Below are positions 15,597-57,276 of a stretch of 64,000 nucleotides of DNA, piece after piece. The translations under genes and the position numbers were made by a program. Origin of the DNA: Fervidicoccaceae archaeon (lineage in GTDB: Archaea > Thermoproteota > Thermoprotei_A > Sulfolobales > Fervidicoccaceae); assembly GCA_038734945.1 (NCBI GenBank), contig JAVYOA010000009.1, forward strand, positions 310,001 through 374,000, given 5' to 3'. Numbering within the stretch: the first letter of the stretch is position 1; each line of letters starts with the position of its first letter. The notes below the pieces were generated by a model that was given only the letters and a program-made list of their open reading frames with translations, had not been told where the DNA came from and did no database searches.

Positions 15597-15821
15597 TTAT
15601 CTAATCTTACAACAAAACCCCAAGCTTGCACATGGAGGCGAATTGTTTAATTTTAAATGTCCAAAATTCAAGTGAATTTTGATTCCTCTCATGCTGAACG
15701 GGATCAATGTAATGTATTTGCCATGCTTCAGAAAGGAATACGACAGGGATTTAAATGCATGTATTAATATAACTTATTTGCTAGAATCCCCTCGCTGCAG
15801 CGAGGGATAGTTCACATGAAG
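15597..15821 (+). repeat. Intergenic element copy A (second copy inverted at 57058-57276)
   Basis: This 225-base stretch aligns end to end with the minus strand of 57276-57058. A core of 32 bases is identical (15707-15738 and 57137-57168), and flanking blocks match with few gaps: TTATCTAATCT at the start, ATTTTAAAT, then GGATTTAAA-GCATG-ATTAATATA, and GTTCACATGAAG at the end. Overall identity looks near 70%. It holds no reading frame shared by both copies. Terminal inverted repeats are not clear. It could be a promoter with a small RNA, a regulatory module or a decayed mobile element. Both copies lie between genes and read toward the next gene on the same strand. Confidence 0.7.
15789..15806. 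promoter_or_regulatory. 18-base perfect palindrome
   Basis: CCCTCGCTGCAGCGAGGG, a perfect inverted repeat, lies about 30 bases after the TATA-like ATTAATATA at 15763-15771, so it would sit at or just after the transcription start of the MscS-like gene. It could be an operator or a hairpin at the 5' end of the RNA. The corresponding place in copy B of the element is only partly palindromic. Confidence 0.5.
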
Positions 15822-15855
15822 AACGGATAAAATTAATTGCAAGGAGGTAAGATTG

Positions 15856-16488
15856 TTGCCAATACCACCATCAATATATAACATTTTAGGAATAGTTGGG
15901 ATTTCCGTTGTAATATTCGTCATCGGAATAATCATAGGGAAAGCGCTTGGGTGGGCAATTAGAAACCTGATAGAGAAGATTGGGATGAATGAGTGGATAG
16001 AGAAGTTCGCAATAGGGAGAGCAATTGCTAAATCTGGCTACAAGCCAAGCGATTTCTTTGGGAAAATAGCTTCTTGGACAGTCTATGCTACTACAGTAGT
16101 CCTCGCACTATACACTACAACCTCCTTCTTGGATCTTGCTGAGGCTAGCATATTGCTGAGAACGATTCTCGTAGTCTACATTGGAGGATTCGTCAAGGCC
16201 TTCCTAATAATCATCACAGGATTTCTTCTCGTAGATTCCTTTATTGGATACCTCTACAAGAGCTCACAGGTTGAGTCAGAGCTAGAATTTCTTGGTCCTA
16301 TAGCAGAGTATCTTAGGATTCTTTTGTACATAATAACAGTAGTATTCGCGCTGGAGCAAGGAGGAATACAAATAGCTTTCCTGAGCAGCATGCTATCACC
16401 AATTCTTTGGGGCATAACTCTGGTTATGGTTATAGTTATACTGGCTCGTTCTCTCTCGAAGCATTTCAAATGCAGCGCTCCTCAATAG
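15856..16488 (+). CDS. MscS-related conserved-helix membrane protein
   Basis: About 210 residues with five or six helices. The pattern of paired helices with Gly-rich faces and the segment near LIEKIGMNEWIEKFAIGRAI fits the conserved transmembrane helix repeat (PF05552) found in small mechanosensitive-channel relatives; there is no cytoplasmic MscS beta domain. GGAGGT at 15843-15848 fits the second of two adjacent TTG codons (15856). A role in osmotic response is inferred from the family. Confidence 0.65.
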   Translation: MPIPPSIYNILGIVGISVVIFVIGIIIGKALGWAIRNLIEKIGMNEWIEKFAIGRAIAKSGYKPSDFFGKIASWTVYATTVVLALYTTTSFLDLAEASILLRTILVVYIGGFVKAFLIIITGFLLVDSFIGYLYKSSQVESELEFLGPIAEYLRILLYIITVVFALEQGGIQIAFLSSMLSPILWGITLVMVIVILARSLSKHFKCSAPQ

Positions 16489-48458: not shown

Positions 48459-48559
48459 GGGCCCGTAGCCTAGCCAGGATAGGGCGCCGGCCTTCTAAGC
48501 ACTTGCTAGAAGGGTTCGGGGAAAGCCGGTGGTCCGGGGTTCAAATCCCCGCGGGCCCG
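48459..48559 (+). tRNA. tRNA-Arg (anticodon UCU) with 26-base intron
   Basis: Acceptor GGGCCCG/CGGGCCC, D stem GCCU/GGGC, anticodon stem CCGGC/GCCGG, T arm CGGGG-UUCAAAU-CCCCG, discriminator G; mature length 75. Anticodon bases are 48494-48496 (TCT). A 26-base intron at about 48498-48523 follows position 37, the usual archaeal place; CCTTCTA of the exon can pair with TAGAAGG of the intron to form the central helix of a bulge-helix-bulge. The exact cut is ambiguous by two bases because of an A run. CCA is not encoded. Confidence 0.96.
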
Positions 48560-57057: not shown

Positions 57058-57276
57058 CTTCATGTGAACTCCTTCCTATAGCGAGAATATTCCAGCACTT
57101 GAGCTATATTAATTCATGCTTTTAAATCCTGCTGTGTTCCTTTCTGAAGCATGGCAAATACATTACATAGATGCTGCTATGCGCGAAAGCATCATAATAC
57201 ATTTGAATATAGCAGATTTAAAATCAACACAATTTGTCTCCTTTCTAAGCATGGGTCTCCTTGCGAGATTAGATAA
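57058..57276 (-). repeat. Intergenic element copy B (inverted relative to copy A)
   Basis: Minus-strand sequence that aligns with 15597-15821 over its full length, with 32 identical bases at 57137-57168. It begins on the last codons of infB (TTATCTAATCT contains the infB stop) and ends in GTTCACATGAAG about 150 bases before the L18a start. The hairpin of copy A is only partly kept (TTCTCGCTATAGGAAGG). A 41-codon frame on the plus strand over this copy is broken after six codons in copy A, so coding is unlikely. Confidence 0.7.

Follow-up and report, generated by a model that had tools for sequence, protein, structure and literature searches.

Within the 64,000-nucleotide stretch of Fervidicoccaceae DNA analysed here (the window), an element of about 220 bases appears twice, and the question it raises is which of the three readings offered by the initial annotation applies: a family of small RNA genes, a mobile regulatory module or a decayed non-autonomous element. 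The element belongs to a known kind of mobile DNA, of which it is one more case, and is neither a new RNA gene nor a new regulatory module. Very probably it arose from a tnpB-bearing IS200/IS605-type transposon by internal deletion and is no longer autonomous.

Copy 1 (15597-15821, + strand) and copy 2 (57058-57276, − strand) align end to end with 76% identity over 226 columns (blastn, E of about 1e-36), close to the ~70% first estimated by eye for this inverted pair, and their local alignment score of 219 compares with 37 at most in 300 shuffles. The homology has sharp limits, setting in at TTATCTAATCT and breaking off after GTTCACATGAAG; the presumed termini of the element are CTAATCT on the left and GATAGTTCAC on the right. 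A search of the genome and its relatives returned a third copy in the same genome (G000:C2:328773-328940, − strand), from which the left ~50 bases are missing, and no further copies in 213 other genomes of the order. Pairwise identity among the three copies ranges from 73 to 85%, and the 32-base core reported for the first two is identical in the third as well. The copies within the window and the core are as follows.

15601-15815, + strand: copy 1 of the miniature element, 215 bp, CTAATCT...GTTCAC, delimited by its homology boundaries with copy 2
57064-57272, − strand: copy 2 of the miniature element, 209 bp, between the genes for IF2 and ribosomal protein LX
15707-15738, + strand: the 32-base core ATGTAATGTATTTGCCATGCTTCAGAAAGGAA, identical in all three copies

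Copy 1 is flanked by an acylphosphatase gene and the gene of a predicted membrane protein (15853-16488). Copy 3 has a gene for an M20 peptidase on one side and a divergent gene for a membrane protein on the other; these flanking genes are arranged differently in a related genome (G002), indicating a rearrangement breakpoint near the element. Other candidate matches were set aside: an exact pattern search of a genome collection gave two unrelated bacterial matches attributable to chance, a weak match near IF2 in G036 (E 0.009, 40 genomes searched) is most likely fortuitous as well, and a viral origin was rejected after three exact pattern scans of viral contigs yielded zero matches.

The run of invariant bases across the three copies is non-random (p of about 1e-5). 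Since the part of copy 3 left of the core resembles copy 2 and the part right of it resembles copy 1, in each case over 61 identical bases, past recombination between copies may be part of the cause of this clustering. The invariance of the core exceeds what would be expected from simple decay, and it counts against reading the element as an IS605 remnant.

The initial annotation had denied the copies a shared coding frame, which proved wrong: copies 1 and 3 share an open frame through the core, and in copy 2 the same frame is broken by a one-base deletion shortly after the core.

15676-15810, + strand: degenerate C-terminal reading frame of TnpB, ILIPLMLNGINVMYLPCFRKEYDRDLNACINITYLLESPRCSEG followed by a stop codon (PF07282, TnpB-tail HMM, motif search)

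Translated across the core, this frame gives MYLPCFRKEYDRDLNACI(N/K)I... in copies 1 and 3, the shape of the zinc-ribbon end of TnpB (C..CGFE.DRD.NA..NI), and the degenerate tail includes ...EYDRDLNACINI...; the CxxC pairs of the zinc ribbon are gone. A whole-genome scan with PF07282 listed copy 1 (325727-325771 of contig 9, window 15727-15771) at 11.6 bits, and PF07282 was the sole family listed when the copy 1 translation was compared with Pfam (E 0.11, below the Pfam cut-off). Pfam gave no match for copy 3. NCBIfam gave none for copy 1, an outcome in keeping with decay of the tail. With an HMM built from 13 TnpB tails of related loci, the copies of the present element being left out, the best score among 1811 reading frames went to copy 1 (E 4e-4) and the next best to copy 3 (E 0.09). 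A motif of the DRDxNAxxNI type occurs once in the six frames of the window and in 0 of 200 shuffled windows. The remnant frame of copy 1 amounts to 44 amino acids, and the element itself (209-215 bp) is too short to encode a transposase.

The same frame accounts for the TATA-like block that had been described in both copies. This block, GATTTAAATGCATGTATTAATATA, is the codon run GAT TTA AAT GCA TGT ATT AAT ATA, which specifies DLNACINI of the TnpB tail, and it exposes a trap for annotation, in that TnpB-tail codons (GAT TTA AAT GCA ... ATT AAT ATA) resemble archaeal TATA boxes. It also counts against a small non-coding RNA gene family with its own TATA box and with hairpins at the 5' and 3' ends. 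Such a family would be consistent with the invariant core, with TTTTAAAT lying ~27 bases upstream of the 5' hairpin, and with two hairpin pairs that have changed on both sides. The predicted folding energy, however, is no better than that of shuffled sequences (z of -1.1, +1.2 and +0.8 for the three copies), Rfam gave no match at the element at either gathering or relaxed thresholds, the 213 other genomes of the order hold no relative, and genomes of the same genus lack the element at the orthologous sites. An H/ACA reading, based on ACA at the 3' end, was rejected, the 3' end being a transposon right end and the fold not significant, and a C/D box reading found no conserved boxes by eye. A small RNA gene family is therefore highly improbable, and with it the candidate RNA family is struck from the list.

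The right end of the element also points to a transposon.

15804-15815, + strand: right end GGGATAGTTCAC, a 12-mer that also terminates a TnpB-tail element in a genome of the same genus (G001:C77)
15789-15806, + strand: near-terminal palindrome CCCTCGCTG/CAGCGAGGG, 9 bases before the right end

Copy 1 terminates in the palindrome (CCCTCGCTGCAGCGAGGG) followed by GGGATAGTTCAC. G001, a genome of the same genus, has an element in which a palindrome (9-bp stem) and ...GGGATAGTTCAC likewise come after a TnpB tail that is degenerate, INRDYNASLNIL (NCBIfam guided_TnpB, E 2.8e-6), and the homology between this element and its sister copy (82% identity over 328 columns) stops exactly at ...TCAC. Because it is also the terminus of a TnpB-tail miniature element in that genome, GGGATAGTTCAC reads as a transposon right end. 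Eight genomes together contain six occurrences of the 12-mer GGRATAGTTCAC; three belong to these elements, and the other three (in G002, G004 and G005) fall within open frames of the ordinary kind and were discarded as element ends. The reversed pattern, used as a control, had no matches in the eight genomes. The right palindrome has 9-base arms in copy 1 and is eroded in copies 2 and 3. A palindrome at the left end is at best weak, consisting by eye of a TCTC/GAGA pair in copy 2 only, and no terminal inverted repeat pairs the two ends of the element. Just beyond the presumed right end, copies 1 and 2 have ATGAAG in common (15816-15821, 57058-57063), which may be a coincidence, an extended target preference or the sign of a misplaced boundary.

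Comparison with related genomes shows the sites without the element. In G001 and G002 the element is missing from the orthologous junction between the acylphosphatase and membrane-protein genes, which is ~200 bp shorter there, and in G001 it is also missing from the orthologous IF2/LX junction.

15597-15600, + strand: presumed target TTAT to the left of copy 1, where the homology between copies 1 and 2 begins
57273-57276, − strand: presumed target TTAT to the left of copy 2
57269-57272, − strand: CTAA, the first four bases of copy 2, giving the last base of the final IF2 codon (ATC) and the stop codon TAA

The description of both copies as intergenic holds for copy 1 and only in part for copy 2, in which CTAA supplies the last base of the final IF2 codon and its stop. 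The IF2 gene now ends TTT ATC TAA, with both of these parts derived from the element. When the flanks of copy 2 are joined after TTAT and before ATGAAG they read ...GCATTTAT|ATGAAG..., giving GCA TTT ATA TGA and an IF2 protein that ends in YAFI before a TGA stop. The ends of IF2 in relatives are close to this restored one, reading FV-stop (GCT TTT GTA TGA in G004, for example). The predicted IF2 protein is unaltered, and copy 2 provides a clean case of an essential gene hit by an insertion precisely at its stop codon. The sequences on either side of copies 1 and 2 show no target duplication. Insertion 3' of a short target and without duplication is the IS200/IS605 mode (PMC8612924), which the missing duplication and the short TTAT fit; TTAT as the target is presumed from two copies only, and the miniature elements of G001 are preceded by TAC.

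All three copies point toward the next gene, as had been noted for the first two, and this orientation speaks for a mobile promoter or regulatory module that now drives downstream genes. By eye, the stretch from copy 1 or copy 3 to the gene downstream of it has no clear TATA box, where G002 has one, and in copy 2 the box CCATGCTTnAGAAAGGA is repeated upstream. Recurrence of this box is, however, limited to copy 2, and the idea that a TF box is duplicated internally ahead of each TATA was rejected, being significant in that copy only (p 0.004). Elsewhere in the genome the box occurs at chance level only, so that a regulon reading by pattern search was dropped; the LX gene retains its own promoter-like TTTAATAACC, common to G001; and the downstream genes have no function in common. 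A regulatory module is accordingly very unlikely. The TATA-like block that prompted the earlier proposal is a codon run of the TnpB tail; a by-product promoter effect is a possible role for copies 1 and 3.

The third earlier suggestion, a decayed non-autonomous element, is the one that the sharp ends, the empty orthologous sites, the TnpB-tail remnant and the transposon right end support. We propose that most of the interior was lost from a tnpB-bearing transposon of the IS605 type, so that what remained would have been a short left part, a remnant of the TnpB zinc-ribbon tail and a right end with the near-terminal palindrome and terminal GTTCAC. The deletion would be older than the spread of the element, because copies 1 and 2 have the same deletion at two sites. 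The short derivative was probably moved in trans by TnpA, presumably of the Y1 type, and would have inserted beside the short target TTAT without duplicating it; its copies appear to have decayed after mobilisation and to be inactive at present. Possible helpers in trans are two complete-looking IS200/IS605 elements of the same genome (G000:C2:417733-419261 and G000:C6:347-1875), each with a Y1 TnpA and a TnpB of ~445 aa; where their DNA aligns, the two are 83% identical. The ends of both are unlike the element's own, and a reading of the element as a miniature form of the two was rejected. No autonomous full-length parent with the ends of the element was found, a point against the proposal, as are the degenerate TnpB tail, the weak left palindrome and the ATGAAG shared beyond the right end.

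Elements of this kind are known from other lineages. The palindrome-associated transposable elements (PATEs) of Haloquadratum have no inverted repeats, carry near-terminal palindromes, produce no target duplication and encode no transposase (PMC3119063). Like HqIRS71 of Haloquadratum walsbyi (PMC3119063), the present element is archaeal, IS605-derived and transposase-free, and like PATEs in general it lacks inverted terminal repeats and target duplication; it differs from HqIRS71 in belonging to a different archaeal lineage, in having three copies only, 73-85% identical, and in its unclear left palindrome. A PATE-like element of ~271 nt in Halanaerobium hydrogeniformans joins 28 nt of the left end to the final 58 nt of tnpB, with the right end behind them (PMC7290912), an architecture nearly identical to that described here, although that element is bacterial, single-copy and has recognisable parents, whereas none was found for the present one. 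PATE-like status fits; formal membership of the PATEs is incomplete, given the weak left palindrome and the lack of a parent with the same ends.

Separate miniature elements were observed in relatives. G001 has a pair of ~325 bp (L097:1051-1370 and L100:714-1037; 82% identical) that combine a TnpB tail with a palindrome and with a right end similar to the present one. G004 has a pair of 350 bp, 98.9% identical, in different contexts (L099, G004:C1:1013657-1014006, and L098, G004:C1:1053554-1053903, both on the − strand), with the TnpB-like tail HDRDVIGAINI, which points to a separate, recently mobile miniature family. These elements resemble the present one in their TnpB zinc-ribbon tail, short left part and sharp ends, but their interiors cannot be aligned with it by blastn, and they represent separate families. 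Several miniature TnpB-tail families are thus indicated in this archaeal family, which bears on the question of guide RNAs that outlive their nuclease genes.

The part retained in these elements raises the possibility that a guide RNA (omega RNA or reRNA) is still encoded by the miniature element, that TnpB uses this RNA in trans and that the element has been kept for that reason. The reRNA is derived from the tnpB 3' end and the right end (PMC8612924), and just this source region is what the element keeps, the zinc-ribbon tail, degenerate and below curated cut-offs, adjoining the right end. The genome contains intact-looking TnpB genes, and the other miniature elements of two relatives keep the same part. 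Against this stand the lack of significant RNA structure, differences of 15-27% between the copies with indels in the right-end hairpin, and the failure to find a matching TnpB; we regard retention as a guide RNA gene as most improbable. A broader version, in which miniature IS605 derivatives of the family repeatedly keep the tnpB 3' end and right end because this part encodes a guide RNA, with TnpB in trans cutting element-free sites and so preserving the miniature copies, is likewise a very remote prospect. The preferred reading thus remains that of a decaying, internally deleted IS200/IS605-type derivative.

Elsewhere in the window, a 101-base Rfam tRNA match at 48459-48559 (+ strand), which ARAGORN did not report, is probably an intron-containing tRNA gene.
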